A DNA stretch of 64,000 bases from Pomacea canaliculata. Its lineage: Eukaryota; Mollusca; Gastropoda; Architaenioglossa; Ampullariidae. The stretch spans positions 27,812,392-27,876,391 of the forward strand of contig NC_037596.1 in NCBI RefSeq assembly GCF_003073045.1, written 5' to 3'. Below are positions 392 through 63,295 of this stretch, piece after piece. A program made the translations under genes and the position numbers. Under the pieces are notes generated by a model. It searched no databases, was not told the origin of the DNA, and worked only from the letters and a program-made list of their open reading frames with translations. The number at the start of each line of letters is the position of its first letter. The stretch's first letter is position 1.

Positions 392-441
392 GTGCAAGCA
401 ACAAAGACGTTACAAGACCAAACACTGATGGACATATGTAA
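392..441 (+). pseudogene. Gene A, 3' remnant: terminal exon of the short (tail-2) cytoplasmic cassette
   Basis: This is the last coding exon of a receptor gene whose body lies upstream of the window. It begins after a polypyrimidine tract and AG at 390-391, in phase 1, and reads GASNKDVTRPNTDGHM then TAA. It is the counterpart of 33237-33286 in gene D and of 45663-45755 in gene E. The E copy continues past this point with VYGDGTL, whereas A and D share the same earlier stop, so the stop predates their duplication. In A the tyrosine of the SYxxV motif is replaced by asparagine, so this tail would lack that phosphorylation site. The homologous non-coding remainder of the exon runs to a GT at 485. 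Whether gene A is otherwise intact cannot be judged here. Confidence 0.6.
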
Positions 442-484
442 TGAGAAGTTATTCTTAAAGATCAGAATGCCTCGCAAACTACAG

Positions 485-2960
485 GTATGTCAAAAATACA
501 ATTTAATATACCGTGTACTACAATAAGTGTGTTTCACAAGTTTCAAATATTTCTAAAGTTTTCTAACATAAATACGGTCTTTCCCGATAAACCGGGTACT
601 AGTCGAGAAATGAACACTATAAAAGTGTCTTTTACAACAAACTATGGAATACTTTGCTTAAAAGAACATTTTGTAACAGCGAACAGTTAAGGGTGATTTA
701 TAAATCACATGTTTATGTTAGGACGATGGTAGCATATGGTAATCTGTATAGTTTAACTTTTTAAACATATAATTTTTTTCCACTTCCCTAGGTGCAGTCT
801 TTGTTATACCAAGGACATCAAGGACTGCTCGCATTTCCTAAAAAGACTTGTTAAAACCTACAGAAAAGAGAGAAACAAGAACAAAAAGATAAGCTGATGT
901 TTAAGGTTCACATTCCACAAGAACAGGTGTGTTGTTTAGCATCTCGCCAGACCACAGCCCACCTTCTTCTTTCACGCTTGCTGTGATCATCTATTAACAA
1001 TAAAACACAACTAAAACAGTTAAAAACTCAGTTATGTGTATTCCTTCGAGTCGTAGCACGGCACAATATCTTATTGTAGAGGGCTTAATCATAGAAACAA
1101 GCAAATTCTTATTTCATTTAAAATTTAAAAGCATAAAACCACAACTAGAAGGAAGCAAATACAAAACCTTTATCGATGGTCTCCACTGCTATGTGCTACA
1201 AAACTATCCGGTTTATCTCTATTTTTCGTCTTTCTTTTTTAATTTGTCTTTTATTTATAGCCGAACTGATTCTCTTTCTTGCAACTCCTAATTAAAATTT
1301 TCAAGTTGAATTCTAGCTCCTACTCCTCGAGTGAGCAAATATGCCTCGAGTTCTTTTTTATTTACATCTACCTCACACCCGCACTTAGCCGACCTGGGAG
1401 TCCCTAAAGTGTCCTGATTTTTTGGTTTTTTTTTTTGCTCTGTGCGTTGTTCGCTTCTCTTTCTCTCGTCATGTCGTTCATGTTGTGTGCCCCAGGTAGG
1501 ACTAGAGAACAGTCGAGTACTGGATGAGCATTTTACTTCCTTGTAGATGTCGACAACACTATGTCACCTGATCCTGTTATCAGCACACCTTTCGTCTCTC
1601 TTTCTTTCTCCTTATTTTAAATTTCTTCTTTTCCTCTTTTCCTCTCGTTGTCTTAGGGAGAAATTATTTCAACATTTATAGGTATATAAATAATGCTAGA
1701 CGATTGCATTCTGAAAACTGCCCTGGTGGACAAATACAGTTGTATTGTACGTATTTATTAAAAAAAAATATTTTTCGAAATAAAATAAATGATTAAGTAC
1801 CATTTTCTTTGTGAAATAAACTCTATAATAAATGTGTGCGTGTTTGTGTGTATGCTTGCGTTCTCCTACGTTGTGTGTGTGAGTGGGAGAGGCATGACTT
1901 ACGTTTAACGGTGTAAGAAGGGAGGAAGAAAGAAGTAAAAGAGAGGAAAGAGAGACTGAGAGGTTTCCTTCAGATAAACAGTTCAACTCACAGCAGACGA
2001 CGTGTACATGTGAAGTCAGACACAAGCAGGTGACACACTGTTTGTTCACTGGGCTGTCACACCTACACACTGGCGGAATGTCTAGACAGCAACAATGTCG
2101 AAACCTGGAACAGGATTTGAACCACTTGTTCGACATACCAAGCGACTTATGGGCTATTAATTTATTTAATCCTTTCTTTTTTTAATTGTCTCACTCCTTC
2201 TGTTTTCTTATCCATCTTTTATATTTCTTATCTTCTATTTACCATTGTAACCTATAAATGACATGTTGAATTTTAGCCGACGGATGAGAACTGAGAAATC
2301 ATTATTGTACAGCCTGCTGTCTGCTCACAAATAACAAGAAAGTTCACACAAAGGACAGACACTCCATCGGCTCTATAATTTCTTTAACGGCTTCACAAAT
2401 TAAAAAAATGTAAAGAAAGAAAAAGATATGAATGTGGTGCCTTATGACTTGAGTCCTAAAGAGAAATGCACTATAATTATCAACGCTACCCACCCAACAC
2501 AAGGCGATATCATAGACCAGTTGTGTGACCTACATGTCTTACAGGGTCGGGTGCGCCAGTGGCGGTTACTGTTTACGTCCTTGGAATTACATTACATGAA
2601 AGGCGTTAACATTACAAACATGGATTTAGTGCCGAGTTCTAGCAAGAATGTGAGCTGCAACCCTACAACCCATTCACTTGTAGTAAAAGGCATATAACCC
2701 ATGTGAATATATTTTTTTGTGTGTACCCATTAAATACACCACTTAACAAACTCTTTTTAGGTAATCACTTCCGCTCTCTTTAAACTTATTTTCTAGGATG
2801 TTATTTCACGTATGTGAACTTTAACCTCCCCGTTTAAATCCTGCACGGTTAGGCGGAATTCTGAGTGGCTGAACGCATTTGTTTTTCCTCTGTTTCAATT
2901 ATAACCGATATAAATCGACCCAAACCGGAATCACTTTGACATAAAAACAACATCAAGGAT
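485..2960. repeat. 3' flanking block of gene A, duplicated behind gene D
   Basis: No coding exon is seen here. The block matches 33329-36340 behind gene D nearly base for base over long stretches, apart from about 540 extra bases in the D copy near 35424-35966. The part from about 1375 to 2290 recurs a third time at 12917-13822, and a more diverged fourth time around 47519-47980. Open frames inside it, such as the minus-strand one at 1696-2136, are echoed in the other copies only because the DNA is duplicated; they have no start context or domain content. The stretch contains T-rich runs and a GTGTGTGT run near 1875. It looks like the ancestral 3' flank of the receptor unit. Confidence 0.75.
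999..1004 (+). promoter_or_regulatory. Poly(A) signal AATAAA of gene A
   Basis: AATAAA lies about 560 bases after the gene A stop codon. The identical sequence context recurs at 33844-33849 behind gene D, which supports it as a retained 3' end signal. Actual use is not shown. Confidence 0.4.
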
Positions 2961-3537
2961 GGAAGGAAAACAAAGCTAAGTCTCATGTTCTCATGGTCGT
3001 TGCAGCCAAAGCTCACAGACGATTCAACTCACATGGTTCTACACCTCAATCTTCTGCAGTCCTACTGTCTAGGAACCTTTTACCTTGTTTCTCTGTACTC
3101 AACTGAATAAAATCCAAATTCAAAGCTTGACATCTGAGGCATTTGTAGTTTGCTAATGACAAAAGGTTATTGGTCTATAAAGGGAAATGATGCAAAAAAT
3201 ACATTGGCAGTTCGATTCTGAGAAAAATTACAGATGCACTAAAAAGGTTTATTTCTCTGATAAGGCAATTTCCATCCACAGGGTGTTATTGTTTTGCTTT
3301 TTGGCTTAAAATGTAAGACGATTGAAGGGAGCTTTGAAATCATGCAGAGACAAGTCAATATGTGGATAATTATTTGACAAATAAAATGAGTTTTATTTCG
3401 TTAGTACATTTCACATTTCGTGTTTTACTAGTACGACAACATCGATGTGACATGAATTGTTCGTTTTGTGTTGGATATAAACCAATATTAGATTATCGTT
3501 CCTTTTTTAAGAAACTTAACATAATAATCCTAAAATG
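2961..3537. other. Gap upstream of gene B promoter block, no recognised feature
   Basis: About 580 A+T-rich bases with no supportable exon, repeat or RNA gene. The corresponding segment is missing between the flank of D and the promoter block of E: homology resumes there at 36421 with GACACTTTATTGACAAAAG. Confidence 0.5.
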
Positions 3538-4236: not shown

Positions 4237-5604
4237 ATGGGGCCGAAGTTTTTGTTATTTTACAGTCTTATACTCCTTCCGCAAAAAGCTTATTCAGGCA
4301 AGTAAGACTTTATACAATGCATTTATGAAGTTAAGGTCTTGTATCATTGCTTTATACATTATTTTTACTCTAGGACTTAAGGTTGTTGATACTGACTTTC
4401 AGACAAAGTTGTCATGTACAGTATATAACAATGTCTGGTCCTTAATATCACTAATAGGAAGGTATATTGACTATCTTTCTTTGTTTTTCTAATCACAGTT
4501 ATTCTGTCTTGGACGCTTTATCTTGATCTTCTTTATGTTCTTCATATTATATATATGTTCGCTAGCAAAGTCAGTAACTAAACTGGTTTACAATCGAAAT
4601 ACAGTTTTACACTTTATCTACTTATATGTATAAACAGATGACATAATTTGATGCTAACGCCCTCTGTATCTACCCTTAGTGAGAGCTATAAGACGAATAT
4701 AATAAAGAGACACAAATTATTTGTGCACTCTTATTTTACGTAAAAATGAGACTGTCATTAAATGTCATTGTCTGATTTTTTTTAGCACTCACGATCGATG
4801 ACTGTCCAGATGGAATGAAAAATGTAGCAGAGGACAGTCAGATCAGCCTTACGTGTGATCGGTATCGCAGCAAGATAGAGTGGTATTATTCTAGCGACAA
4901 CAGGTTGGGGGACAAAATCGGTGACTGCGATGGAACATCTTGCGACCTCACAGAGAGAAATCAGTTCAGATTAGATGCCGAGGAGACTTGGTGGTTGTAC
5001 AAGAGCACTCTAAACATCACGAGAGTTACAAGGGACGAAGCTCGTTTTTTCCGTTGTAAAGAATATTACAGCGATGACATAGACTCGTGTAGACTTCGGG
5101 TAACAGGTGGGTAGTATACTTTTCATTATTATTAGCCGTTAGGAAGATACAAGATTTTAATTACCTTACAGGCCAATAACACCAGTAGACCTATGTCCCT
5201 ACTGCAAGTATACATAAGTATAAGAATCAAACAGATCATCGAATGTACCTTAAATGTATGATTATTTCAGTTTTTCTTCTTGATTTTGTCCAACAAGTTG
5301 TTTTTATCTTTAGCCTGACCTGATTTGAATGTCTGTCTGTACTGTTTGAAATTCAGGTCTAAGATATTTGATGCTGCTTACTTTGTCCTTCCTTCAACTT
5401 GTCTGTATGAGTGCTAACAGTGAGATTCCCTCTCTTGGGCTTTCCTGGATCAGCTGGAGGAGATAAGATTAGTTCGTTGCACTTACTCTCGATGTGTCGG
5501 ATTTCCGATTACGAGACTTTACACACGACTTATACGAGAGTTACTGTACACGAACGAACACTTAAACCGTCCCTAGGGACTTTACGTCTCTCTCTCTCTG
5601 TATG

Positions 5605-5641
<37 letters not shown>

Positions 5642-7764
5642 AATACTGTATACTTAAAAATTTAAAGGTTCCTGCAATAATAATCTACAGGTCTTGAATT
5701 TTCTCTTGATACCAGAACGGTCTTTATAGTTCAAAATATTTTGTTTTGCATTATTCTTGCCTTAGACTTGTTTTGTCGTTGTCTGCACCTGACTGTTTCA
5801 TCTCCACATCCCATCGACTGCCAGCCTCCTTTATCTTGCCATAACGGTTTCTTTAGGCAGCTTGCTGGAGAAAGAGATGATAGTCTATTTAGTATTTTTA
5901 TCCTTTCTGCTCTATGATCATGTAGGTCCAAACAATGTACGATGATTTGATGTCTGCACAAGAACTATTTCCGACTATCTTCTTTTGTCACATATTATTA
6001 ATGACAGTAGAATGGAACTACTAATTATATAACTGTCACTAAAATCTATCGTCATCTTTGACTTGTGGTAAGGTCTTACATTTGACATGTTTGATACTAT
6101 TATTTTTAAGCAGATTTGGTGCAATTGCATGAATGAAGTAGACATCTATATTCCTTGATATCATTTTCTCCAGCAGATATTTGTCATGTTTCGACCATTT
6201 AGAGAACACCAGACTAAGAGGATAAATTAATGTGCTTAAATTTGTGACTCGTAAAGGATGACGAACACCGTCTAGCAAGTGATATTATCTCATGATTTGT
6301 ATTGTAATAAAAGTCAGTGCTGCCACCAATCATTTTTAACAGCACCTGCTGAAGTTGTTCCTGAAAACTGCAGTGTGTGGATATCAGACTGGCAAGTGCA
6401 AGGAGAATGTCAGGTAGAAAAGATGTACTCGTCAGATGATGTCTACACATGCACGTGGAGCGTTAACAATACTGAGGTAAACAAGATAGAAAATGAGTAC
6501 ATGCAACATTTTACAAACTTAATATTTAAATGCACTCTTCACAAAATTTATTTGCCTACTTTAAAAAAATGTAGAATGTGAAGGAATCTTTGTTGATATT
6601 CTGAGCTATCAAAAGAAATCTTTCAGCGATGAAATTGAGAAACTAGATTGTATAAAATTTGGGAAATTATGCAAAGTTAACTAAAAGTAAAGTTACTTAT
6701 AAAACCCATTTTTGAAATTTCTTTTAGATATTGCAAAACTAATATTTAGAATATGTCATTCTTTCTGTAAAATGGGTTAATAAATTACTTAACTGCAATT
6801 TAGCCGTTAGAAGGGCATTGAGAGTAACAATTATTTATGGATATATTTTATTAGCACACTTGAGTTAAGAAAGAATCAAATTGACCAAATTTAGCTGCGC
6901 CATTTTAGCATCAATGTTTGTTCTTGGTTAATCGTGCAATATTTGCGAAGTAGTTCTGTAATTAGTTTTCTCTGTGAATGTTAGCATATTTATTTGGCTC
7001 GTTATTTTTTTCATTGTAGGTGACAGGTGTATCTGAAAGCCCACTGACTACATACCGGAACAACTCAAGAACCTACATGAGAGGAGTTTGTTCCTTCAGG
7101 CAGGAAATACCGTTTAATGGATACAACTTCACCCACAGTATCAGTTACACCTACAAAATCAGTATAGACCCAGGTCCTCAAGACAGCCTTGTAACGACGA
7201 TAAACATTGGTAATCTTTGACTTAAACAATACTTAAAATAATTGCAGTTATGTGTTTTATATTGATTAAAAATAGTTCTTTACATCAAGTCAGTTTTTTT
7301 TTTAAATTTAAAGAGGCAAACAGAATCTAAAATGCAGTCAACAGTGTAGAAACATATATATATATATATTTAAGAAAACCCATCCCAGTGGATCAAATGA
7401 TCCAACTAAATATCATTACAATAACTTTAAATCATTGGGTGCAATAATGTGGTGATTGATATAGTTTGTTTTGTACCCAAGGCTGTAATTTCTTGTCCAT
7501 TGTCCAGAGCCTCCTGAGAAGCCTGAGATCAATTGTTCAGAAACTGTTCTTGAGGGATCGACTGTCAAATGTATGTGCACCTCTCAAAACAAGGGAAACC
7601 CGCCTGCAAAATTTGTGTGGGATGGACTAAACACTGATAGACTACTTCTTCAGAATGTCAGCCGCCAACAGAGCTTCACTAATTATACATGTCGACAGAC
7701 TTGGGGTCCTGACGAGGTTATCAACACTACCGTTAATTACACCTTAAAAGTAGCATGTAAGTAA
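4237..7764 (+). CDS. Gene B: truncated Ig-superfamily receptor with signal peptide and three Ig-like domains, no membrane span
   Basis: Exons are 4237-4297 (signal peptide starting MGPKFLLFYS), 4786-5106 (domain 1), 6343-6476 and 7020-7209 (domain 2, split by a phase-0 intron), and 7508-7756 (domain 3). Domain 1 has the Ig pattern SLTC then IEWYY, and ends RCKEYY with a further cysteine near CRLRVTG. Domain 2 shows C-x13-CTW and then RGVCSF. Domain 3 shows KCMC, FVWDG and YTCRQTW. The gene is closest to gene E. Exon 1 uses a GC donor (AG followed by GCAAGT at 4298); the nearby GT four bases later would put a stop just after the next exon begins. After the domain 3 donor the frame reads Cys-Lys-stop, ending at 7764. 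Domain 4, membrane and tail exons are absent because unrelated DNA starts near 8164. Spliced and read through to that stop it would give a secreted protein of about 320 residues; it may equally be a pseudogene. Confidence 0.75.
5587..5641. repeat. (TC)n/(AC)n microsatellite in gene B intron 2
   Basis: A run of CT dinucleotides passes directly into a run of AC dinucleotides. It lies in the intron between domain 1 and domain 2 of gene B. The open frame across it is a repeat translation only. Confidence 0.9.
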
Positions 7765-11345: not shown

Positions 11346-11380
11346 TCTATTTTTTTGTCTCCTGGTATTTACTAAAGGCT

Positions 11381-15429: not shown

Positions 15430-18400
15430 ATGGATCAGAAGCTGTTTGTGTTGATGTGCAGTGTTTTTTTCATCGCTGGAGGTAGCTACATTCAGGAGTC
15501 ACATTGTATAAAAAATAAGCTATAGAAAAACGTGTTTTGTAAGAATAATTCCATTTATATATGATAAAATACGACTTGACTAAACAAGTTTCAGACAGAG
15601 ACTTGAGACCAAATAACTATTTGAAAATAAATTTGTTCTTGTGTTAAGTGCAGATGTTTTATATAGTCATTACCCACAGCTTTGATTTGTTAACTTTATT
15701 AAAAACGAAACCTAAAACTGCTGTCAGGCGTGGAGATCAGGCTAGCTACTAATCTATAGTAAAGGATCATTATTGCAGACATGATACAGAACATAAAGCT
15801 TCTTTTATAATGTCTGATTAAAGAGTGAATTTTCTTGATGTTAACACAGTGTACAGCAGGTAGGTCGTTCAGCCCAGCATGTATCTTGCTTACAGGTCTG
15901 GTAAGAATAGTCGCAACAAGATAGCTTTGGTTTTTATTGGTTGAGTCAGTCACTCTGCATCAGTTAAAAATTACCTGGTGGTGTAAGAGGCAGAACGAAA
16001 AGAAGACATAACAAGCCTATATTAATGGTTTCCAGTTTGCCTACAAGCCACTTAAAGGGGTGTTTTGCAATATTTCCTTCTAACTTTGACGCCTATGTTC
16101 AAATCCTGTTCATGAAAATATCCAGCCACACCTTCTTGTAAAGTGCCTACTAGACTAGTGTAATTTTATCATTTCGGAGAGTTTAACCACAGAGGGTGTG
16201 ATTCTGAGTTCCACCAAGTACTGTAGCGTCCGGACGTCTCAAACGATACATTTCTCAATTAATATAATGATTCTGTTACACAAGCATATACTCAACACGG
16301 GTTACCCTCGGGGGTGTGTGCTTTGCCCTATCCTGGGGTTAGTCTATTAAAATGAGATTCCTAATAATAACGCTATTCTCAAACTTGTAAAGTACAAGGC
16401 TGGTCAGAGTCAAATACATCAGGCAGATACAATTTTTAATACTTGACATCGGATTCTTTCGAATTTATACCTTTATTCAGTCAGAAAGATGACATATAAC
16501 ATCATTTCACACAAAAAACACCCTCTCCATCCCAACTTTAAGCTGTTGCCCTCGTCAGGTGCTACAAAGTGCTACGTTTGCGATAACCTGTCTACTATAG
16601 GTCCTTCGTGCCCGAGGCCATCACCATCCGTGCTTCCATGACACATCGCGTTACCGCAGTTCAGACGTTAATGGGGGTTAAAAACTAGTTAAGCATATAT
16701 GTTGTTTTGCAAATGTATTGGCAATATGACTTCTTTAATTATTTAAAACTCCATTCTTTGGTTTTCAGACCCGGTCATCAACGAGTGCCCGTATAAAGGA
16801 AAATATGTATACGAGGACAGTACTGACACCTTCAGTTGCAGCAATTACGGAACAAAAATGTCGTGGCTTTTATATAATGGCACAAATAGAATGACAATCG
16901 GTATCTGTGATCAGCAAAGTTGCATATCTGCAGATAAAAACCGTTTCAACTTAGAAGCAACAAAAATTCAAAATTGGAATTACAAAAGTCAACTAGAAAT
17001 AAAGAATGTTACAAGGGAGCATGCTCGTTTTCTCATTTGCTTCGACAGTTCAGCAGAACAAGACTACTGTGAGCTTCATGTTATAGGTAGGCGGAACAGA
17101 CCTAACTTTTCCTTTGTCTGCGGTTAATGATTTTTTTTTAAATTTTTAGTTCTCTATAATAAATAAAACCATTTGCTTTGTGTTTTGTGTTGGAGCCTGT
17201 GTACCAAAAAAACAAAAAACAACAACAACAACAAAAAACACAAAGCTGTTAAAACAGAAACATGGAAGAACCACAGTAATTCTTCAAAAAACTATTACAA
17301 TGATATGGTTACTAGGTAAGACACATGTTTTCTTAAATGTTAGGCTGTATTGACCAAGACGCTTGACAGCAGTAGAGCTGATTCTCAAGTCTTGAATATA
17401 AGATAGTTATTCAGAAAATTAAAAATATATAAATCCGTATTTATCAATAATATTTTTACTTTCAGTCCACAAAGAAATGAACTTAAAGAACTTAACAGTT
17501 AGCCAATTATAATAATGATAAGTATATTGAACTAGCCCCAAATCCAGAAAATGGTCGTGTAAAGTCCTATAGTACGTAAACATATGTACGTACATCTCAT
17601 GTACCTAATCATTTGATGCGGATGCTTGGAATCTTTCTGTGTTGTTGGTAACAAATGTCTGCGATTAACTTTTCATTTTCACACAGCGCCTGCACGTGTC
17701 CCTTCTAATAACTGCAGTGTGAGCATCTCTAACTGGCAAGTGAACGGGACGTGCTTAGTGTTTAGAATGTACACGTCAGACAACAACTACTGGTGTGCTT
17801 GGTACGAGAACAACAACAACAACAAGGTACTAGAATATTATCGAACTGTGTTAGTTCTATAGACAGGTATCATGTGATTTGAATGCAAAATAATTGTCAA
17901 GCACACGTTGTTTAGATATTTGACATACCTCACCACTACTGTTATCTCTAAGCTTAAATTCTTTCTGTGATTTTTGATCACTGTTGTCCCACGCATTATG
18001 GTTTGCTATGCCTAGATTATTCATGTGATTAATCACATTAATTTTCTATTTAAGACTGGTTGGGGAGCAAAACATCATAAAGAAGAGCAGACATTTAGCC
18101 ATAAAGTGTTTCTTTAAAATGTTTCCTGATTAGTTGCCACCTAATAACCATGTTTACCTTAGTTTGAGTGAAATATCGGCAAAATAATATTAAAAATATA
18201 AATGACAAATATTCCTCAGCATAAAGATGAGAGATGCTGATATAACATTTGAATTACCTTTAATTAAGCTTCGTCCCTATTCCATTTCATTTCTTTGCAG
18301 AGCTTCGGGTATATGGGATTTGGTAGCACACTCAAGAACTATACTTATAACTCAAGGAATTATACAAGAGGAAAATGTTCATTTACAAAAGAAATGTCTC

Positions 18401-21400: not shown

Positions 21401-22476
21401 GTGAATGGACGGCAAAGGCCCAGTCAACAGTAACACCAGCAGTTGCTGTAAAGAAATTCCAAGATTTATCAGGTGAAACATTGCATCTCTTGTTACTAAC
21501 GTTGCCAAAGCTTAGAAATAAATAATAAATAAATAAATCTATGAAACATAAAGGAATGAGTTTGTCGTATACATCGTGGTATCATAAGCTTGACAATCCT
21601 GTTGATGGACATTTTAAAAAACCATAGGAATGCAGTTTAATGCATGAAACACATACAGATTGAGATTTATTACAAATAATATGGTGTGCGTTAGAAAGTT
21701 AAACTCTTACATCATTCTGTCTCCTTTTCTGCATCTGGTAAAAATTAATGAAGCATGTCTAGGGGTTTCCATGATTAAGAACTACGTCAAAGAAAGCGGG
21801 CTGGAAATTTCGATTTAAGCAAGACTGTCTGTTAGTTAAAAAATGAAAGGGACAATGGAAGCATGGTAAACAAGTTGTAGTAAAGGCATGCAGATAGGTG
21901 CTCACAGGCTACATTATGTTATCTTTAGTCATGTATAATAACGATTTTGTAATCTTATAATTTCCAGGTGGCTACATGAATGTCACTGAAGTTTTAACAG
22001 ACTCTGGTTTGGGCGTGTACCATGTAGTTCCCTGGGCTTCAAATTCTGGAACCATGAATCCTGTAAGGATTGTTTGTCACTGACGAGTATCTTGCAATGA
22101 TTACAAAAATTAAATGCTTCCTTTTTTAATCAAAGTTGCTAGTTTTGGAGTATTTTTTGCAATTATGCCTTTATTTATATGACATTTCTCTCGAGTTTTC
22201 TAAAAGCATATCAGAAACAGCTGATTGCTTTTTTAAAAAACACGGCTTGTAATATTGAATTAAAAACAATACAACTTGCAAAGTAACTTTACGTGTTCGT
22301 AACAGGAAAGTTCTACACAAGCCATCTCTGAAGACGAATACAATGCTCTACATTTCGAGAAAGATCGAACTGGACAAGAAGACCTGGATGTGGACTACAA
22401 TCACCTTCAGACCACAGAAGACAATTACTTCACTTTAGAGCCGACCTACTGAACATCTTTACGTTTAACGATTAAT
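15430..22476 (+). CDS. Gene C: complete four-Ig type I receptor with long tyrosine-rich tail (tail 1)
   Basis: Ten exons: 15430-15481, 16769-17086, 17687-17826, 18301-18478, 18883-19131, 19468-19737, 20021-20155, 21110-21472, 21968-22062 and 22306-22476. Phases are consistent throughout and give about 656 residues. Layout: signal peptide (1-17, MDQKLFVLMC); Ig domain 1 to about 123 (TFSCS, MSWLL, FLICF); domain 2 to 229 (C-x13-CAW); domain 3 to 312; domain 4 to 402 (VTCTA, FTWNITC, VTCTASN); membrane segment near 416-442, ending KRRKG; cytoplasmic part to 656. Tail tyrosines sit in LYAVV, GDLYTIP, YNSVYETA, GYMNVTEV (a pYxNx GRB2-type site), DEYNAL, VDYNHL (fits ITIM VxYxxL) and NYFTL. The domain 3 acceptor has a weak pyrimidine tract. 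Ligand and signalling are not known; a surface immune or self-recognition role is inferred. Confidence 0.85.
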
Positions 22477-40000: not shown

Positions 40001-41321
40001 TGAGTTCTTACCAGTCTCGCGGTAGAACCTACATGAGAGGAGTTTGTTCTTTCATCCAGCAAATACCTTTTAATGGATACAGCTTCACCAGCAGTATCAG
40101 TTACACCTACAAAATCAGTATAGACCCAGGTCCTCAAGACAGCCTTGTAACGACGATAAAGATTGGTAATCTTCGACTTAAGTAATATTTAACATAAATT
40201 TCCTTGTTATTTAGTAGTTATTTAAAACAATGACAGACACATTTAATATTACTTTGTACATTGTTAAAGCGAAGTACTATTACAGGTACTACTATGAAGG
40301 TCATTCTAATCCAAAAGTTTAGCAGACAATAAAGAAAAGATGTAGGGATAACAAAAGAAAAGTTAAGTATTGCTGCTTGGTGTAAACTATATACAGTATC
40401 ATATATTTCTTTCTATATATATATTTGTTTCTGCGGAAATTCTCAAATGTATATAATTTTTTATTTGATACATAAAGGCAGACAGAAATAAGGAGACGAA
40501 CCTCATTTTTTTCTTTACATTATGTCAAGTTTGTTAACTTCCAAGATGCAACAAGAATCTAAAAAGCAATGAAAAGTATAAAACCACTCGCGCGAGTATA
40601 TATATATAAATACACATCACAGTGACTCAAATAATCCAACCTAAAAACGTTTCATTATCTTTCAATGACTGGGTACATTATGTTGTAATTTGGATTGTTT
40701 TGTATCCAAAGGTGCAATTCCTTGAAATAATGTCCATTGTGCAGAGCCTCCTAAGAAGCCTGAGATCAACTGTTCAGAAATTGTTCATGAGGGATCGACT
40801 GTCATCTGCAATTGCACCTCTCAAAACAAAGGAAACCCGCCTGCAAAATTTGTTTGGGATGGAATAAACACCGATAGACTACTTCTTCAGAATGTCAGCC
40901 GCCAACAGAGCTTCACTAATTATACATGCCGACAGACTTGGGATCCCATTGGGGTTATCAACACTACAGTTCATTACACCTTCAAAGTAGCATGTAAGTA
41001 CATTTTTTTACTTTTTTATGACTATTTTATTTTCGGAAATGGATATTTTTTTTCTAATGGAAATTTTGACTACTGAATGAAGCAAATATATTACGCTGAT
41101 GATTATATTTTGTAAAGTTCCCTACATTTAAAAAAATATTCGCATCGACGTGCTTGACACCACCCACCCTACTACCTCACACACGTACACACTCACCAAT
41201 ATGCACACAGATACACAATCTCTATACCTTTTTAGGCAAATGAGTATATACGACATAAACATATCTGGAAACACTTGCTTTTGATTTCTTAATTTTAATC
41301 CAGAAGAAAAATCCCTAACGG

Positions 41322-41370
<49 letters not shown>

Positions 41371-45210: not shown

Positions 45211-46073
45211 ATCCAGTATACAACACGGCTAGAAGACCTGCTAACAAGGAACATAATTATGAAGACCTTACTCAGAACAGGTGTGAAGTTCGCCAGCCAA
45301 CAGGTAAATACAGGGCACTGGATCTCCAGTATGTCAATAAACATTTGAGTTCAATTATGTTTATGTTTTAATTTAGAGCAAATGATAAGAGAAGAAAAAT
45401 AAGGACACATTTGGCATCATGGAGAAGCGATCCTCTACCCACAGCTTCCCAAACCCTTCCTATTCTACACTCCCTATATTCTCACATCCGTCACAGTACG
45501 AAATCGCTTTTCCGTTTTTTTCGTCATAAAAGAAACAACCCGTGAGGCAACAAGTCTTGGGTGGTAAAATATTCAAAGTCTCGGGTAACACTATCCTATC
45601 TCATAACAGAAAAGTGAAGAAAAAGTAATAAACAAATATCACAATTGTTTGTCTTGTCTAAGGTGTAAGCTACGAAGTGGTTACAAGACAAAGTTCTGAC
45701 GAACATGTATATGGGGATGGTACTCTTAAAGGTCAGAGTGCTTCAAAAACTGAAGGTACGAAAAAAATACAACATAACATAAAGTTCAATACAAAACGTG
45801 TGTTTTGTACGTTTTGAAATATTTCTAATTTTTTCTAAACCATAAAATAAGGCTTAATCTATAAACCTAATACTAGTAGAGAAATAAACACTATAAAGGC
45901 AAACATTTTTAGATAATAACATTAATGTAACAACCAACAATTAAATGTAACTGATACATCATGCGTTTGTGTTGGGACGATGCTAACCTATGTTAGTCTG
46001 TATAGTGTAAGTTGTTGACAGGTAAAATCTGTTTACTTCCTCAGGTGTAATCTTTGTTCTACCAACGACTTGA
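45211..46073 (+). CDS. Gene E alternative 3' exons: short tail cassette (tail 2)
   Basis: Exons 45211-45303, 45663-45755 and 46045-46073 fit the phase-1 end of the membrane exon at 42217. They read DPVYNTARRPANKEHNYEDL, then GVSYEVVTRQSSDEHVYGDG, then GVIFVLPTT and a stop. VSYEVV fits the ITIM pattern VxYxxV, and NYEDL is a YxxL site. The first two exons have the same length (93 bases) as in gene C. In gene D the second exon stops early. Confidence 0.72.
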
Positions 46074-48896: not shown

Positions 48897-51800
48897 ATGG
48901 CTGTGAGGACCCTGTGGATCTTATGTGTCGCTAATCTTCTTGCTATAGAGGTTCATGCTGGTAGGTAAAATGTTATAGTTACTTCAAAATATGAACATAT
49001 TTGAGTTGTGATTCCACTCTGTAGCAGTATTTTTCTTCTTTGTTTATTTGTTCTGCAGTACACGATATAGCTGAAGCGCATTTTAAAATGTTCGCATGTG
49101 TGATCACTAAAGTATGAACATAAGGTCTCACCACTGAAAGCAAGAACTTTCTCTCAGATGGTTAGCCAACGACAGTTTGCTCCTCATACTTCACCCTTTC
49201 TCAAATAATGCGAAGTATGACAATGCAAAAAACAAGCATGTTAAAATTTTGCGTAGGGTGATTAAAGATACTGCCTATTATTGTAAAACGGAAGAAACTG
49301 TGGCAATAATCATAAAGAAAAATATTTGCAATGCATATTTATGATTAGACTGCTAAGTTTAGTTTTGACGAATCAGAGTATATTTTATACACGGGTTTAG
49401 GACTGTTTGTGCTCTGTAGACGTTTTCTCAGGCTGTGTAAGATAAGACGATGACACTCTTAATAAAGAACTGATAAAAGTTAGTAATAAATCGAAAGTAG
49501 CACTGGGTCCACTATCAGTGTGGGGCAGCAAACCTTTCTTCCTCAACCCAGTTGTCGGCATTAAATAATTGTAAGACGAAAGGAAGCAAAGTAGAGATTG
49601 CCTAGAGAAAAGGCATTTTGTCTATCACTTCACCCCCCTACCCATCCGCCTTTAAAAAAAAACTAAAAAGTTAAGGACAGCCTTTGTATTTACCTTAAAC
49701 TTAGAATGACAGAGGTGAAAGAAAGAGACTACATGGGTTTTAAAAAAAAAATTACTGTCTCCCTTAGATGATTATAATGATGATAGCGCTTAACTTGACC
49801 TCTAGAAAATATTTTATTTAGATTCTAGGAATAATTTAATTGTATCACAATAGATAATACTGTTATTTACACCATCCAAATTTATTTACTCCGTGATTTT
49901 GATATTCAATCAAGAATCCTGTCATTCAAGAGTGATATCAAGGCAGTGTCGTCAAAAGTTTGGACTAGAAAAGCTCAACTGTCATTATTCTCGAAGCGAC
50001 TATGGAAAAAAACTGCTTAAGTTAGGAATATCACAAGTTATTGTTGTTCAGCTTAGATTAAAGTTCGTGTAAGCTAGTTACTAGGAAACATGACATTTTC
50101 CCCTGTAGCAGGTGATTGAAGTGGCCTAAGATAAATATGGGAGGGTCCAGGTAAATACTGTCGTGTTTGTATGTACTCCAGTGATCAGGTAAGGTGGAGT
50201 TTATGGTGAGGTTGTGACCTTTGCAGCGTGGGCAACAGATAAGAGCTTAAATAATAAATTCGGTTATGTGCTTCAATGGCAGGTGTCCATATTTTTTTCT
50301 TTACATTTCAGATTCTTAAATACTATAATAATAATTATAAACGCGCTGATACTTTTGTAATTTATTTTTAGGAAGTTTGCATTTTAAATAATGTTATCAG
50401 TTTAAGAAAGTATAATGAAACATGTTTATGTTGCAGGTTTGCATATCAGTGGTTGTGAAAATTCGATAATAGAGGGCACAGTCCCCTCATTTACATGTGG
50501 AACATTTGAAGAAGAAATGCTTCAGTGGACGGCTTATAACTACTTAGGTCAAACTGTCATACCTGGTTCGTGCAACAATCACACGTGTACATCTACCACT
50601 GACCACTTTAATTTAAGCATCGGTGGTACTCAGTCCACTGGCTACACATCAAGTCTAACAATAAAAGGGATCACAAGATCAGATAGTCAATTATTTTGTA
50701 ACACATCCAAAGCACACTCTGAATGCAATTTAAATGTGATCGGTAAGTCAAAAAATGAATATTTTGCTTGTAGCCATTTGTCATGTTTTTGATGTTATAT
50801 GTTTTCATTTTCTTTCATTTGTAAAACCTTTTTTTAGCTGTTAATATCGGTGGGAACACTTGTTGGTACTAATGTGTTTCTTTCATTTTCTTTCTAAAAA
50901 ATATTATGATTACTACTAATTAGTCACCCTAAAGCTTCTCTGTCGAATGCTAAGCGTATTTTGCTAATTTATTACAGTTCTGCAAGGCAGCAGGCCTACT
51001 TTCACTTCATTGAAAACACTCTAAATGAACTCGAACCATATCGAAACATTATTGACAGCTATTTGTAAATGGCGATTGTTTAATCTCTGCTTTGGCCTTA
51101 TTTTCTTAGCATTCATATTCATCTCTTAGGCTTAATAAAGTTTGAATTAACAAGGGATACCCACCCGATAAATTTTTTTCTTGGAATTGATATGTTATGC
51201 TCTGTTGTAAAAATAAGTCGCACATTTCTTGTTATTCGCTACTTTATCTAACAGCATATAATATTTTTCAAGGCTATGTATCTTTACTTGCTTGATGGAT
51301 TGGTCAGCTCTAAACATGACATACCTTACATTTATTATTTGATTTTAGCTTTAACGATACAAATAACATTACTTTTATATGTTACGTAAAGAAGTTTCTA
51401 TTTGAAGTTACGTTACAGTTTATAAATAATGTAAACCACGCTGATCCAACAAATTGTGGGAAGGTGCTGGGCATTGTCTTAAATTTGTTTAAAAGGGTGA
51501 AGTCCCAAGTAGTTGATAAAACTGTTTAAAAATGGTAGAATTTTAAAGTGGTAAGTACAAAGGATTCCAAGAAGAGAGACCATCATTTAAAAAATTCGCT
51601 GGTCAGTAGAGAATCGGCAAGGAATTTAAAAACGTTTTTCATGTATTTCCCATTAAAGTATATATATATATATCAGATGTATTTTTGTTTACTAGATACA
51701 TTTTATGTATTACACATCTACCACATACTTTTCTAGCACCTGGCTGCGTCGTTCCTGAAAACTGCAGCGTGCGGATACTAAGTTCGCAAATCCACGGGGC

Positions 51801-54800
51801 ATGCGCAGTTGAAAGGATGTTTATCTCAGGTGGCAATTATTCTTGCACGTGGCTAGTAAACAATGACAAGGTATTTTACCCAGGTGTTTATAACAAACGG
51901 TTAAGAAATTTTAAAATATATGGAAATTCGTCAAAATGTATTTTATAATTACATAAAATTCATTTCAAAAGTTTTTTTTTTTTTGAATAGTATTTCCAAA
52001 GGTATGCAGGTTGCTCACTTTTACTAGACGTCAGTAAAAATAGTTGGAAAATGTTTGTGTAAAGTAGGAATTTATCGAGAGAAGCAACTAAATCTGGTTT
52101 AAACTCTACAAGTCAAGTATCTTAGACGTCATTGTCGTATAAATTATAATAAAAGAGACCTTTTTACTGTTTTGGAATGTAGTAAATGCGAATAGAATTA
52201 ATAGACTGGTAGTTTTTGGCATAGCTTTAGAAAAATATGTAACAGATATCGTGTTGTCCATTAAGAGTGTTTTGGTATCTTTAAATATTCAATAATAATA
52301 AGTCAAAAAATATTTCAACCTTGCTGCAGATAAAAGGAACTTTCAGTCAGACGCTGACTGAGTATACTGTTGAAGCAACAAAATATTGGAAAGGAGTTTG
52401 CCATTTGAGTATGTTAATACCTGTTGACCAGCACTTCTTCATCGTCAACATAAGTATAGACCCTGGGCCACCAAACTATTACGTTGGGACTCTGAACATC
52501 ACACGTAAGATAACTTCTTTCTTGTTAGAGTTGCTAATTTGTGTTTGAGCATTAAATTCTTTATACCTACAATGGCACAAGAAAAGCTACCGTGTATGTT
52601 TGTAAAGCGAAAAGAAAAGTAACTATTTTCTTTACACAATATGTATTAAGAGACTAAACTATTTCTCTTATTCTTATTTGTATTTTGTCTCTCGCTGGGT
52701 ATTATATTAGCTGCCTAAGAGGGTATATTATAAAAGCCCGTTTGTTACCATAAAAATCAAGTGAAATAAAGGACAGCCAGTGTTTTATTGCAGTCTTTAC
52801 TTCATTCATTATTCTACAGATGGTCCATCATCAGTTCACATCTCAGGCAACACAAAAATATCAAAAAATGGGACTGAGACTGTGTTAGTGTGCACGGCGA
52901 TTGATGTTTATCCTTCAGCTGTGTTTGTCTGGAACATCACGTGTGACAACGAGACTCACAACGAGACCTCGAGCACGTGCATCCTATCAACAGCCCACGT
53001 GGACGACGAGATGACCATCGAGTGCAAGGCGAGCAACAGTGTCTTTGAGAACGTGTCTTCTTCTGAGGTTTATGCTTTAAGTACCAGAGGTAAGCACAAA
53101 GTACAAATATATTAATAGAATACCTAAAGTACTTAAAATTAATACTATTTGAAACTTGTGATTTTAAACTATCTTTGATGACAAAGACCGTCATCACCTC
53201 TCTACCTTAATACTGTCAAGGTAAGTACTGAAGTGGTCATATGCCTCCATATACATGTGTAGGATTTATTATGTCTACGTTACTTTGGATATAGTTATTA
53301 GATAAAATTACTCTGTCCAAAACGTTTACGAGTAGGATATGTGTTAAATACATAACAAAATAATGTTAACCTATGTTAGTGCGCATACCTGGTTTTTAAT
53401 ATAATGCGTTTGATTCTATCTTAAAGCACATTGACAAAAAATAAATATTTCTTTTGCTAAAGTGATCAGGTTTTTTTTCAGATGACATAAAGGCCCCTAG
53501 TGCTAGCTCAGCAGAAAGTAATTCAGGAGCAATAATTGGTGGTGTTATTGCTGCTGTGGTTATTATCGCCGTCGTAATAGGTGTTGTCATTGTATATATC
53601 AAGAAAAAACGAAAAGGCAAGTACAATTACATCTTATATGTTAAACATTATTTTTTTCTCTTGCAAATTAGATGGATTATACATGACGAAATCGTATAAA
53701 CCAGGGTTTCTGTAATTTTTATTAATTTGCGTTTATTTTGATTATATTATTCCTTTTTTTAAATCCTTGATTTGTAAACATAATTTATTGTCCAAATCAA
53801 CATACTTTCACACACACACACACACATGCACAAAAACACACCCATAGAACTCGCGATGTCTGTCAGTATGAAAAAATGGATAAAATAGATTGCTTTTGGT
53901 GAAAACATACCTGTTTGTGGTCTCACTGCTGAGAATACATTTTTATAAATTTTCCTACTCTACTAAACTTTAGGTCGCCTTTACACGTTTTGTTTTACCT
54001 TTGCTTGTTAAACACAACTTACTATACCGGGGTTTCGGTTATTTTGTTCGCTTCACGGCAGGTCTTTTATTTCACTATTTTTTTACAAGACATATCACAG
54101 ACTTGATCTTGGCTAAGGCGAGTATTTTTCTCTTTAATTACTTTAAAAATTTAATTGCTCGCTAAAATTGTGCTTTTTTGAACCCTAATCATCGCATGAA
54201 AAATTAGTTATCAGGAAAGTTAAACATTGCTTTTTATGAGTACATATGCTTTACTAAGTAAATATAGTACATAGTACATTATATTTTTATACTATATCTT
54301 ATTATAATACATTATATCAACCACAATTAACACCATTCTTCCTCACGATGACTCTCGTTGTCCTTCCAGCATTCAACAGCTTTGCACATATATTAAAGAC
54401 CTCAGCAAGACTAAATTAGACAACTAAAATCGAATGTAGTAAACATAATTCTACATTTATTTTAAAACTGTGATTAAGTGAGTATTTATTCTGTAGGTTC
54501 AGGAGAACCAGAAAGTAAGAGAAGCGTTCTTGGATCTTCTTCTAACACTGCTAACTTCTGTGAAGAAACTACTCGTTCTTCGAATCCTTATTCCGTGGCC
54601 AACAAGTCCAAGACAGGGACATCAGTGAAACAATATGAAACACCATCGGGGAATCTGTACACCGCTGGTACCCAATTGATAGTCAATCACAAAGAGCTTG
54701 AAAACACAGCTTTTGATGAAGCACCTGACTGTTATGTATATATAAGTGAAAGTAATGTGGACCTTCAAGACAGGCAAGACTCACAAGGAACACAGGAAAC

Positions 54801-55819
54801 AAAGACAGCAATAAATCGGGAAATAAAACAAAATAACCCACCAGCAAGCGAGGACATATCAGGTATGTCACATTGTCTTAAAATTGGTTGAAAATTATTA
54901 AGGAAACTATATAATTGAAATAAAAACAAGTAAAATAAATAAAGTGAGAGAAAAGTAACTTTCGAATTTTTGTTTGTTTATTGTAGATGTTAACGTAAAT
55001 GGTCATGGCTTTAAACTTATGATGACATTACTTAATATTTCATAATGGATCTGGATTTTTCCTTTCAGTATTGTATAAAATCAATTAAAACAGCATTAAT
55101 AGCATCCTTCAAACTTAAAACTGACGATTATACATAATTGTTGTTGTGCACACAGAATGGCGATGTGTGAGAGACTAGGTCACAATAACATAATCTAATA
55201 AGTGGTGGAACCTTTTAATTTAAATTTGCAAAACAAGTGTGAAAATGATAAAGTTTAAAAATGTGTGACATACGTAGAAGTCAATAGACAAGGAGGCACC
55301 TAAGTATAAAGAACATAACACTTTTAAAAACTTCCAGACACTGGCTACACGAGTGTCACAGAAGTGGCGACTGATTCCGAGTTGGGCATCTATCATGTTC
55401 CCTGGGAACCTATACCTATATCCATGGACCAAGATGCAAATGTAAGACAACTTTTAAATGCTGTAAATAAAACCAACTTTCAACAAGTTTCATGCAACAT
55501 TTATATCTGCATTTTGTCACAAAGTCCTTTTATAAAAATATCCTTAAACATTATAACTTAGAAAAGGTGACATCATACAGAAACTGTTTTTTACTACATT
55601 GTGTTAATAAACTTTATTATTTTTAGGAATCTGGGATCATTAGGCAAGGTATTTGCTAATGTTGGTTTTTTTGTGTTTCATTTCCTGTTACATATTTGTT
55701 CACAGGTCTACTCTATAGCAGGAGTAGCAGAGGACGAATATAAGGAGCTACACATTAAAGAAGAACATTCTCGGCAAGAAGTCCAAGCTTCTGACTACAA
55801 CCACCTTCAGTTCACATAG
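48897..55819 (+). CDS. Gene F: type I receptor with domains 1, 2 and 4 and long tail (tail 1); domain 3 absent
   Basis: Nine exons: 48897-48960, 50437-50742, 51737-51870, 52330-52504, 52820-53089, 53482-53616, 54497-54862, 55338-55441 and 55706-55819. They total 1668 bases, about 555 residues. Signal peptide MAVRTLWILC; domain 1 begins GLHISGCENS and has SFTCGT, LQWTA and LFCNT; domain 2 has C-x13-CTW and KGVCHL; the next Ig exon is domain 4 (LVCTA, FVWNITC, IECKASN). Only 315 bases separate domain 2 from domain 4, with no domain 3 exon between. The membrane exon ends KKKRKG at a GC donor (GCAAGT at 53617). Tail tyrosines: NPYSVA, GNLYTAG, YVYISE, TGYTSV (fits ITSM TxYxxV; the paralogues have YMNV here), DEYKEL and SDYNHL (fits ITIM SxYxxL). 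Domain 1 groups with G and H rather than with B to E. Confidence 0.85.
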
Positions 55820-56529: not shown

Positions 56530-56618
56530 CTCCAGCTTACGACACCGCCAGAAGACCTGCCAGCAATCAGCACATCTATGAGGACATTGATAAAAATTTC
56601 CAGCCTGCGGGCACCTGA
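56530..56618 (+). CDS. Gene F alternative 3' exon: short tail (tail 2)
   Basis: One exon after TTACAG, fitting a phase-1 donor such as the membrane exon end at 53616 or the tail-1 exon end at 54862. It reads APAYDTARRPASNQHIYEDI, then DKNFQPAGT and TGA. It corresponds to the first tail-2 exon of C and E but ends inside the exon, so the SYxxV exon is not used or is lost. Motifs are YDTA and YEDI. Confidence 0.7.
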
Positions 56619-59404: not shown

Positions 59405-60796
59405 ATGGCTGGCAGACGACTGTGGATAACATGTCTCGTATCACTGCTCACCATAGAGGGTCATTCAGGTACTGCAAGTTTATATTTATTTTTTGAGATA
59501 TGAAGTTTGTTAATCACCACTAATCTGTGTTCACCTAAGTTGTACAGGTCTGTATCGATTGATTGTTTAATGCTTTATCAATAATAAAAGAGTAGTTAAC
59601 TATTCGTTTGTAAACACTACAGTTATGTTTGGTGCAGGTTCGAATCTTGTCTCAACTGTTACATTTTTTTATTACAGGTTTGACCATTGGTGGCTGTGAA
59701 CAGGGCAGTGTCGTGGTTACTAACGGCACAGACCCTTCATTCACCTGCACCACATCTTTGTCGAACTGGTTGTGGTGGAAGATTTTCAGTGAGGAGGGAA
59801 CATATTTCGGCTACTGTAACAGATGGGGATGTACACCGTGGAATATCCAGTATACGGTAGATGTGAAAGGTTCTTCGTCCAGCGTCTACACATCCAGTCT
59901 GATGATAAAGAGGATCACGGGAAACTCAACCAGGACACTAGTTTGTAGCAGCCCTGGGGAACCTTTGGAGGCTTGGTGCAGTCTGACAATAACAAGTAAG
60001 CTGGAAATGTAAACGTGCACAAAATAGTTTGTCAGTGTATATATTTATATACATAAACTACAGGTTATTCTCAAGAACTAACCATAGAGTTGAGACTCCA
60101 TTTTTGATGAGTGCGAATGATAATATACTATCATCTGCTGGAAGATATTCACAATGACTGTACCGACTACCGATGAAGTGCAGATGAAATCGCGACCAGA
60201 CGGTATCAACATAAATCAGTTACATATTAAAGTATTTATTCGGAATAAATTTATGACACAATCTGAAGTAATATTTATTGTATTATCACTCATACAGATG
60301 AACAATTTACTAAAGAAAATGAGGACAAAGGAACTGGATCGTCTGTCGATGAGAAAGGAGCGATAATCGGTGGCGTTATTGGAGGTGTGGTTCTCCTCGC
60401 CATTGTTATCGCCATTATCGTTGTCTGCATCCTCAGACGAAAGAAAGGTTTGATTTCTTATTCATATTCAAATACGTTTTAAAAAATATGCTACACATGT
60501 CTTGAAACCACTTTTGTGGTTTTATTCATTCTGTTTAAGATTAAGATTTAAAGACTGCACACGAGAAACTGAACTACTTTCTCATGATTATATCTGAACA
60601 CATTGAGTACAACGATTGTCTTCTATTACCAACATAAAGCTTCAATCATAAGTTTATATTATATTTTATTCAAGTTGGAGTGATATTTGTGTTATTTTCT
60701 GCAGATAAAGACTTTGATGTTCAAAGGTCAGACACTACAAGTGATTCAGATCCGCCAGACTTTTCAATGGCTACCTACCAATGCACCAGATGTTAA
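59405..60796 (+). CDS. Gene G: short single-Ig type I membrane protein without signalling motifs
   Basis: Four exons: 59405-59468, 59678-59995, 60298-60447 and 60705-60796; about 207 residues. Signal peptide MAGRRLWITC; one Ig domain beginning GLTIGGCEQG, with SFTCTT, a WLWWK core and LVCSS; a membrane exon with an acidic stalk and a GAIIGGVIGGVVLL span, ending RRKK; then a 30-residue tail, DKDFDVQRSD onward, ending YQCTRC. The tail contains one tyrosine, in ATYQC, and no YxxL/V site. Domain 1 closely matches gene H, and the membrane exon matches the longer paralogues. All junctions are phase 1, so it equals a long receptor with domains 2 to 4 and both tail cassettes removed. It could act as a decoy, an adhesion form or an adaptor-dependent partner; no charged residue is seen within the membrane span. 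Confidence 0.85.
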
Positions 60797-62185: not shown

Positions 62186-62248
<63 letters not shown>

Positions 62249-62603
62249 GTGTGTGTGTGTGTGGTGTGTGTGTGTTAGTGCATTTCATTACATCTCAGCT
62301 TGCAGGCTCGGAGATCTTCACAAACTGTACTTATATAATGACAGGAAACAAAACCCTGGCTAAACCACAAGCTGCTTAAAGAGAGAGATATCTTGATATA
62401 AAGTTTAAACAGAACAAGGAAGGAAACATCCCTTGCACCACACACTGTCTGCAGACTGTCTTTGGACGGAGAAGCAAACTGTGTTCTGTGTAGAGACTGG
62501 GCTTACAATGACTGTATATACTGTGAAAAGACATTTTATTATATCGTGGATTTGCTATTTGTGCTGTGAAGATTTATATTAAATACGACAGCCAAGTCAA
62601 GTG
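60797..62603. other. Intergenic region G-H
   Basis: About 1.8 kb with no supportable exon. AATAAA at 61638-61643 is a distant candidate 3' signal for gene G. It contains GT-rich runs around 61330-61425 and a long (GT)n tract (listed separately). Confidence 0.45.
62188..62275. repeat. (GT)n microsatellite upstream of gene H
   Basis: About 88 bases of nearly perfect GT repeat, with two interruptions near 62248 and 62263. The open frames of repeated Val-Cys across it are not genes. Confidence 0.95.
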
Positions 62604-63295
62604 ATGGATGTCTGGAGCCTGTGGATGTTGTGTGCTCTTCTCGCTGGAGAGGGTCATTCAGGTACTTCAACATTTTAGTCGACTTGAAACACGTTCATTG
62701 TATTATCTTTGATTATTTCTTAACTAAAGTCTTTTTATTTTAAAGTTTGTAAAGATCAAACTGTTTAAGGGTAATATTTCCTCCTTTTTCCCCAGATACC
62801 CCTTTCACCACCCTTGTCTTTCAGAGTTCGAGCATTCGGTAATGGTAACGCACTCTAGCAAACAAGCCAACCAACTAGCTGACTATTTCTCAGTAAAGCT
62901 CTTCCTTTACAAAATAAAAAAAAAGAAAACAAAACAGCAACATTGGTACTTAAATGCAATAACTTTTGCAGTTTCAGGTTTGACTATTGGTGGTTGTGAA
63001 CAAGGTAGCGTAGATGTTACTGAAGACACAGATCCCTCATTTACATGTCCTGCATCTTCTTCACATCAGATACAGTGGAAGGTTTATAGTGAGCAGGAGA
63101 AAGAACTCTATTCTGCATATTGCAAAAGCAGGACCTGTAAACCATTGAATAACCAGTTTAACTTATCCATAATAGGCTCTAAGTATGGAGACTACACATC
63201 AAGACTTATGATAAAGGGGATTACAAGAGAATCCGCTCAGAGACTGGTTTGCATTGTGTCCTCAGAACGAGCCGAGTGCACTTTGAGAGTCATTG
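62604..63295 (+). CDS. Gene H, 5' part: signal peptide and first Ig domain of a further receptor
   Basis: Exon 62604-62661 encodes a signal peptide (MDVWSLWMLC, ending GHS), and exon 62978-63295 encodes an Ig domain beginning GLTIGGCEQG, with SFTCPAS, IQWKVY and LVCIVSS, and a last cysteine in ECTLRVIG. Both junctions are phase 1 and the donor at 63296 is GTAGGT. The domain is very close to that of gene G. No further exon is found before the window ends at 64000, so membrane and tail exons, if present, lie outside. Confidence 0.8.

Follow-up and report, generated by a model that had tools for sequence, protein, structure and literature searches.

KIR and LILR clusters are composed of tandem immunoglobulin (Ig) receptors with activating and inhibitory tails, include soluble and short members, evolve by birth and death, and usually place the two tail types on separate genes. 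The locus described here lies in a window of 64,000 nucleotides of the apple snail Pomacea canaliculata (C7:27,812,392-27,876,391, forward strand; contig C7 has 30,920,076 bases, in a 440-Mb assembly of 24 contigs), which carries eight paralogous genes of the Ig superfamily (IgSF), g0 to g7. It shares with KIR/LILR the tandem Ig layout and the mixed tails; unlike them, a single snail gene holds two tails. The locus probably belongs to a lineage-specific array of paired-type recognition receptors, found so far in P. canaliculata only, and the best reading is that this array would work like KIR/LILR or Botryllus FcoR, no homology to them having been detected.

One of the closest likenesses is to the fester co-receptors (FcoR) of Botryllus schlosseri, described in the available text of their report as clustered, with a V-type Ig domain, two C2-type Ig domains among further domains, a transmembrane segment and a long tail with tyrosine motifs (PMC12065747). 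Some FcoR loci exchange an immunoreceptor tyrosine-based inhibitory motif (ITIM) and a hemITAM, the hemi form of the activation motif (ITAM), by alternative splicing (PMC12065747). According to the same text, FcoR differs in having a sushi domain and in the pairing of each gene with a fester gene, whereas the snail tail has YxxL-x15-YxxL. Neither a sushi domain nor a fibrinogen or lectin domain, as in FREP/VIgL, was found among the 13 Pfam families matched by 15 family members at E 0.01. No FcoR protein surfaced in the protein searches described below, and no direct comparison with FcoR was made. The Hydractinia Alr complex is likewise presented, in the available text, as clustered, divergent single-pass IgSF genes with pseudogenes and low sequence identity (PMC11067881); Alr1 and Alr2 are proven polymorphic allodeterminants, whereas the snail array is known from one assembly.

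Clustered single-pass IgSF genes with tyrosine motifs, together with the splicing swap at FcoR loci, would also be in keeping with a complex for allorecognition (self/non-self), of the kind that Alr represents in Hydractinia and fuhc in Botryllus. However, apple snails are solitary animals and do not fuse, which makes a histocompatibility role unlikely on biological grounds and leaves this explanation very improbable.

Two molluscan systems offer further comparison. In the gastropod Biomphalaria, the PTC1 (GRC) and PTC2 regions are clusters of single-pass transmembrane genes that have diverged widely (paralogues <50% similar), and the regions are hyperdiverse and tied to schistosome resistance; in contrast to the array, PTC2 proteins are described in the available text as lacking known domains or homology outside gastropods (PMC7494358). 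No Biomphalaria protein surfaced in the protein searches at E up to 10. CgIgIT2 of Crassostrea gigas is a molluscan haemolymph IgSF receptor with a tyrosine activation motif, but it is a single gene with five Ig domains and a reported ITAM, and the available text describes neither a tandem array nor a tail switch (PMC11999971).

In an exact 5-residue-word search of 5.8 billion proteins at E<=1e-3, 0.01 and 10, no relative outside P. canaliculata was found: 6912, 7998 and 7998 candidates were scored, giving 5, 7 and 9 proteins, all from this species. Nor did any homology to KIR/LILR or Alr, to which a first-pass annotation had likened the locus, emerge at E up to 10. Family members with as little as 30% identity were recovered at E 1e-53, so that equally close annotated relatives sharing exact 5-residue words should have surfaced. 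These searches covered annotated proteins, with unannotated ampullariid genomes outside their scope. In the literature listed, judged by title and abstract start, no account of the C7 cluster was found, and six of the 12 family LOC names returned no literature. The immune expansions named for Ampullariidae and Biomphalaria in the available text of two reports do not include the C7 family (PMC13336756, PMC10875847).

Gene content and extent of the array

Gene models were built from homology searches and splice-site reading. They follow a common exon plan, comprising a signal exon (SP), D1, D2 in two exons, D3, D4, a membrane exon (TM) and tail exons (TE1, TI2 and TI3 for tail I; TE2, TE3 and TE4 for tail II). 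All 41 introns in seven gene models obey one scheme, being of phase 1 except for phase 0 inside D2, with 38 GT and three GC donors. The features below are given in window coordinates.

392..441, + strand: g0, final tail II exon (ASNKDVTRPNTDGHM, stop 439-441), by homology to TE3 of g3/g4
-6431, -6216, -1288 and -553, + strand: g0 remainder, left of the window (SP, D1, TM and TE2, respectively)
4237..7764, + strand: g1 (LOC112568219); SP 4237-4297, D1 4786-5106, D2 6343-6476 and 7020-7209, D3 7508-7756
15430..15481, + strand: g2 signal exon, a degraded relic
16769..20155, + strand: g2 (LOC112568216), ectodomain and TM; D1 16769-17086, D2 17687-17826 and 18301-18478, D3 18883-19131, D4 19468-19737, TM 20024-20155
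21110..22452, + strand: g2 tail I; TE1 21110-21472, TI2 21968-22062, TI3 22306-22452, stop
24100..24458, + strand: g2 tail II; TE2 24100-24192 (YDTA-x9-YVDL), TE3 24331-24458 (YDMV-x9-YVGL, stop)
26385..33286, + strand: g3; SP 26385-26445, D1 26605-26928, D2 27930-28063 and 28832-29018, D3 30491-30739, D4 remnant 30982-31291 (frameshift, stop), TM 31471-31656, tail II only (TE2 32279-32371, TE3 33237-33286)
36997..42217, + strand: g4 (LOC112569091), ectodomain and TM; SP 36997-37072, D1 37574-37909, D2 39334-39467 and 39976-40165, D3 40745-40993, D4 41657-41944, TM 42071-42217
43147..44295, + strand: g4 tail I; TE1 43147-43515, TI2 43944-44047, TI3 44179-44295 (YNAL-x15-YHHL, stop)
45211..46073, + strand: g4 tail II; TE2 45211-45303 (YNTA-x9-YEDL), TE3 45663-45755, TE4 46045-46073 (stop)
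48897..53616, + strand: g5; SP 48897-48960, D1 50437-50742, D2 51737-51870 and 52330-52504, D3 absent, D4 52820-53089, TM 53482-53616 (GC donor)
54497..55819, + strand: g5 tail I; TE1 54497-54862, TI2 55338-55441, TI3 55706-55819 (YKEL-x15-YNHL, stop)
56530..56618, + strand: g5 tail II; TE2 (YDTA-x9-YEDI, stop)
59405..60796, + strand: g6; SP 59405-59468, single D1 59678-59995, TM 60298-60447, short tail 60705-60796 (one Tyr, stop)
62604..63295, + strand: g7; SP 62604-62661, single D1 62978-63295
+64471, +65657, +66347 and +66828, + strand: g7 remainder, right of the window (TM, TE1, TI2 and TI3, respectively)

The first-pass annotation had proposed at least eight co-oriented paralogues with 1, 3 or 4 domains and a shared exon set. 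All eight are indeed co-oriented (g0 being represented by its last exon and g7 cut by the edge), as established by the homology and splice models and by the RefSeq identity of g1, g2 and g4, and the domain numbers hold as well, with three extracellular domains in g1, g3 and g5, four in g2 and g4, and one in g6 and g7. The shared set stands as a single plan, from which g1 departs in having no membrane exon and g2 in its degraded signal exon; D2 is not recognisable as Ig by its profile and is left unassigned. Joined exons of g4 are identical to both LOC112569091 isoforms, X2 (669 residues) and X3 (544 residues), those of g1 to all 318 residues of LOC112568219 X2 (P0006), and those of g2, from D1 through the end, to LOC112568216 X2 (P0008). 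Compared with the homology-based models, RefSeq starts g4 at a codon further upstream and moves one of its acceptors by one codon; in g2 it differs by a one-codon shift. The g0 exon is identical to the end of LOC112568218 X2. Models of g3, g5, g6 and g7 rest on genomic sequence, the retrieved RefSeq records covering other loci.

Eight is the number in the window, and the array itself is much larger. The D4 exon of g4 has at least 39 matches in the 440-Mb genome, all 39 on C7; at least 21 of these, all on the + strand, lie at C7:27.56-28.00 Mb, forming a 0.45-Mb cluster around the window. The tail-I exons also match C7 exclusively (37/37), and each of the 15 family RefSeq records, from 12 loci, is placed on a contig with the length of C7. 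Further family groups on C7, of mixed orientation, have at least 14 D4 matches at 24.2-25.0 Mb and at least four at 20.97-21.11 Mb. Within the main cluster, 296 kb were analysed in two blocks, with the stretch 27.74-27.79 Mb outside them; they contain 22 D1 exons, and every above-threshold family exon is on the + strand. Both tails, in the order TE1-TI2-TI3-TE2(-TE3), are present in six of these 22 units, namely g2, g4, g5 and three neighbours outside the window. Five units have tail II exons only, three (including g1) have neither a membrane nor a tail exon, and the remaining eight have either tail I, just TE1, just the membrane exon (g6) or remnants.

Several members are reduced. Exon searches found no D4, TM or tail exon of g1 before g2; having no membrane exon, g1 encodes a soluble three-domain protein. 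At the site corresponding to the g4 TM acceptor, g3 has AA rather than AG, and the two nearest relatives of g3 among the retrieved records, P0004 (g0) and P0005, have RefSeq models that skip D4. The end of the short g6 tail is also legible in its twin at C7:27.714 Mb. Recent duplication is evident in window positions 1-2595 and 32847-35423, which are 91.9% identical in DNA over 2618 aligned columns.

The region holding the first core cysteine of D4 is missing in g3 (window 30982-31291), g0 (C7:27.8106 Mb) and the 27.719-Mb gene (C7:27.7239 Mb); the g3 copy is also frameshifted, and the RefSeq models of g0 and the 27.719-Mb gene omit D4. GC-AG introns with strong donors occur at window 4297 (g1 SP), 37072 (g4 SP) and 53616 (g5 TM), the donor being CAG|GCAAGT twice and AAG|GCAAGT once, while in g3 the corresponding signal exon has a GT donor. 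Four intergenic gaps, 3' of g0, g1, g3 and g4 (window 1375-2291, 12919-13824, 34222-35119 and 47570-48006), contain copies of a spacer element of up to 0.9 kb, with pairwise identity of 67-92%. Rfam and tRNA scans gave no match.

Alternative tails and their tyrosine motifs

According to RefSeq, the full genes of the array have two tails: tail I consists of TE1-TI2-TI3, and tail II of TE2-TE3(-TE4) joined directly after the membrane exon. A single tail joining TE1 to TE2 was ruled out by the RefSeq isoforms. Predicted tail-alternative pairs occur at LOC112569091 (X2/X3) and LOC112568907 (X3/X2), diverging exactly after the membrane exon (P0001/P0002 after residue 473; P0010/P0011 after residue 450), such that the FcoR arrangement of one gene with two tails by splicing is found at both loci among predicted isoforms. 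In g4, the ectodomain with tail I is isoform X2 and with tail II is X3; in g5, either tail joins the ectodomain in an open frame.

Tail I is marked by YxxL-x15-YxxL, which, searched with the spacing fixed at 15, occurs in 7 of 15 RefSeq members compared with 11 of 20,000 shuffled tails. Both YxxL are held by nine of 11 genomic TI3 matches, all nine with the x15 spacing. Tail II starts with YxTA/R-x9-YxDL/I in five of 15 members, twice in P0011. The ITAM pattern is YxxL/I-x6-12-YxxL/I and the ITIM pattern [SIVL]xYxx[ILV]. A canonical ITAM, YNHL-x6-YFTL, is present in tail I of three of the 15 members (P0008, P0009 and P0010), all of the g2 subfamily, and arises by chance in 320-521 of 20,000 shuffles of those three tails; in g2, TI3 reads YNAL-x15-YNHL-x6-YFTL, the last two elements forming the ITAM. 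The ITIM pattern occurs in six of 15 members (tail II of P0002, from g4, and of P0011; tail I of P0001, P0008, P0009 and P0010), with the match in g4 tail II, VSYEVV, in TE3.

Exons of both tails have proportionally more synonymous than nonsynonymous change between g2 and g4. In TI3, changes fall on 22.0 of 87.8 nonsynonymous sites and on 21.0 of 23.2 synonymous sites (p 7e-9 for a nonsynonymous rate, dN, below the synonymous rate, dS); in TE2, 7.5 of 71 and 12.5 of 19 (p 1e-5); and in TI2, aligned by hand, 2.5 of 41.7 and 8.5 of 12.3 (p 2e-5). Purifying selection has thus preserved exons of each tail across long divergence.

These results bear on another explanation, namely that the array is mostly decaying and weakly expressed, with the cross-gene and alternative RefSeq isoforms reflecting reads mis-mapped among paralogues. 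The broken D4 of g3, the broken signal exon of g2, the absence of TM from g1 and several remnants are all in line with decay, and array segments are up to 92% identical in DNA. However, six genes keep both tails open and in order, purifying selection acts on the tail exons of copies whose dS is >1 or saturated, and models of 7-10 exons are open throughout, so that general decay is quite unlikely.

Extracellular domains, selection and recombination

By profile, D1 looks immunoglobulin-like and of V-type, and D3 and D4 look immunoglobulin-like. Six cysteines of D1 are invariant across 13 sequences, and by profile most of D1 aligns with V domains (single-chain variable fragment, E 4e-4; T-cell receptor (TCR) beta, 0.017; PD-1, 0.03), while the top rows of the profile search are CEACAMs, reached via summed weak matches. 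D3 and D4 have Pfam Ig_2 or Ig_3 matches with printed scores under the Pfam cut-offs; Ig_3 is matched at E<=0.01 in 10 of 15 RefSeq members, and an Ig_3 is precomputed for one record (P0002). Across 10 sequences, D2 shows four invariant cysteines with a C-x-W motif. The D2 profile matched nothing significantly in PDB; the two matches up to E 5 were interleukin-6 receptor alpha (E 0.31) and Fc (E 1). The C-x-W motif and split exon resemble those of the FNIII domains of class I cytokine receptors; with a non-significant best match, D2 as a cytokine-receptor-like FNIII domain is a mere hint.

The profile evidence also leaves some room for a tandem Ig family of adhesion or neuronal type (IgLON- or JAM-like), or of gamete or egg-coat proteins, expanded for reasons other than defence. 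Adhesion molecules can bear tyrosine tails, and gamete proteins typically evolve fast and duplicate locally. The best solved matches of the whole-family profile are adhesion molecules, namely CD166 (E 1.4e-5), neurotrimin, opioid-binding cell adhesion molecule and JAM1, and the CEACAM rows of D1 point in the same direction. However, D1 also matches the V domains of antibodies, TCR beta and PD-1, and paired immune receptors are the better fit for the alternative tyrosine tails, the ITAM subfamily, the soluble and short decoy-like members, the remnants and the loss of domains. Neither consideration is decisive, and an adhesion or gamete origin is regarded as somewhat unlikely.

D1 has the lowest identity among D1-D3 in 50 of 66 pairs (P0002, an isoform, and P0011, a fusion, are excluded from the identity tables, and P0012, which has no D1, lies outside the D1-D3 pairs). 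Summed dN/dS over six non-overlapping close pairs is 0.75 for D1, 0.60 for D2, 0.46 for D3 and D4 and 0.30 for TM, with D4 excluded for pairs involving g0, g3 or the 27.719-Mb gene, in which it is decayed. On these counts, D1 is the least constrained domain, suggesting relaxed or faster evolution without proof of positive selection; diversifying selection in D1, which the first-pass annotation named as a check, is not borne out by the summed ratio. Positive selection on D1 was considered for g1-g4 (dN/dS 2.07, one-sided p 0.05), one of 21 D1 pairs, and set aside because that ratio did not carry over to more genes. One subfamily varies most in the C''-D and FG-like segments of D1, a second in C''-D, with segment borders set by eye.

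Gene trees point to exchange of D1 between genes. For LOC112568922 (P0007), D1 groups with P0003, P0004, P0005 and g3 (96/94), and D2-D3 with g1 and g4 (99/98), each alternative being rejected in the approximately unbiased (AU) test (p 0.02; the groups were named after the identity tables were seen, and the P0007 D1 branch is long). In the upstream, signal-exon and D1 region of P0007, DNA identity is 69-72% with g1 and 76-80% with the 27.719-Mb gene, while D2-D3 with introns is 87-88% identical to g1; the D3 exon is close to both. By this evidence, which includes a breakpoint in the DNA, D1 recombines, and P0007 is a mosaic gene with one D1 on another D2-D3.

Some predicted transcripts also cross gene borders. 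A signal exon outside the window (window -18,003, donor CAG|GTAAGT), which precedes the gene encoding X4, is common to the LOC112568216 isoforms X2 and X4; X2 therefore joins this exon to the g2 D1 across 34.7 kb, past that exon's own gene body, g0 and g1. LOC112568907 X2 (P0011, 767 residues; C7:27.699-27.717 Mb) is a fusion in which a four-domain receptor with tail II runs on into the adjacent single-Ig gene and takes in the signal peptide of that gene. As RefSeq predictions, both the borrowed signal exon and the read-through fusion could be mapping artefacts. A tentative and rather doubtful proposal is that diversity arises at two levels: recombination in the D1-D2 intron would move D1s between bodies, and splicing would select opposite-acting tails and join exons of neighbouring genes, such that receptor types would far outnumber genes.

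Proposed function and significance

Gene models, profiles and genome matches support the proposal of an invertebrate IgSF array that evolves by birth and death and combines signalling with non-signalling members. The array is built like a paired-receptor complex, for which an immune role is the best inference rather than a result. In such a role, haemocytes or similar cells would carry the receptors, whose D1 would bind a variable ligand (a parasite, a microbe or altered self). Once phosphorylated, tail I (YMNV, YxxL-x15-YxxL and, in the g2 subfamily, a canonical ITAM) would recruit SH2 proteins and activate, and tail II (YxTA-x9-YxDL, YxxV) would signal differently, perhaps by inhibition. The tail would be chosen through splicing of the TE1-TI2-TI3 block, giving one specificity two outputs; soluble and short forms may act as decoys or need partners.

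Several observations weigh against a paired-receptor interpretation. The alternative-tail isoforms are RefSeq predictions, and the printed Pfam Ig scores lie under the cut-offs. Twelve of 15 members, and the scanned g3, g5 and g6 models as well, have no canonical ITAM. The ITIM pattern is reached by 14-35% of shuffled tails (2784 of 20,000 for the g4 tail), so that its presence is weak evidence, and in g4 tail II it could have arisen by chance. Tail constraint is not significant for TE2 in g3-g4 (p 0.51) or TI2 in g4-g5 (p 0.15), and among the six close pairs it is weaker in tail II (TE2 and TE3, dN/dS 0.52, p 0.09). Overall D1 dN/dS is below 1 (p 0.045 for dN<dS), and in the single-Ig pair of g6 and the 27.713-Mb gene D1 is conserved (dN 0.00 vs dS 0.22).

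If the interpretation as a paired-type receptor array is true, the locus would be an independent protostome case of an arrangement that has been described chiefly in vertebrates, one tunicate and one hydroid. A gastropod array of this kind would make directly testable how a receptor repertoire is built and controlled without adaptive immunity. P. canaliculata is an invasive species and serves the rat lungworm Angiostrongylus cantonensis as intermediate host, as stated in the available text of PMC6187997. Since the snail hosts this parasite, the receptor cluster would be a natural candidate locus for host-parasite compatibility.

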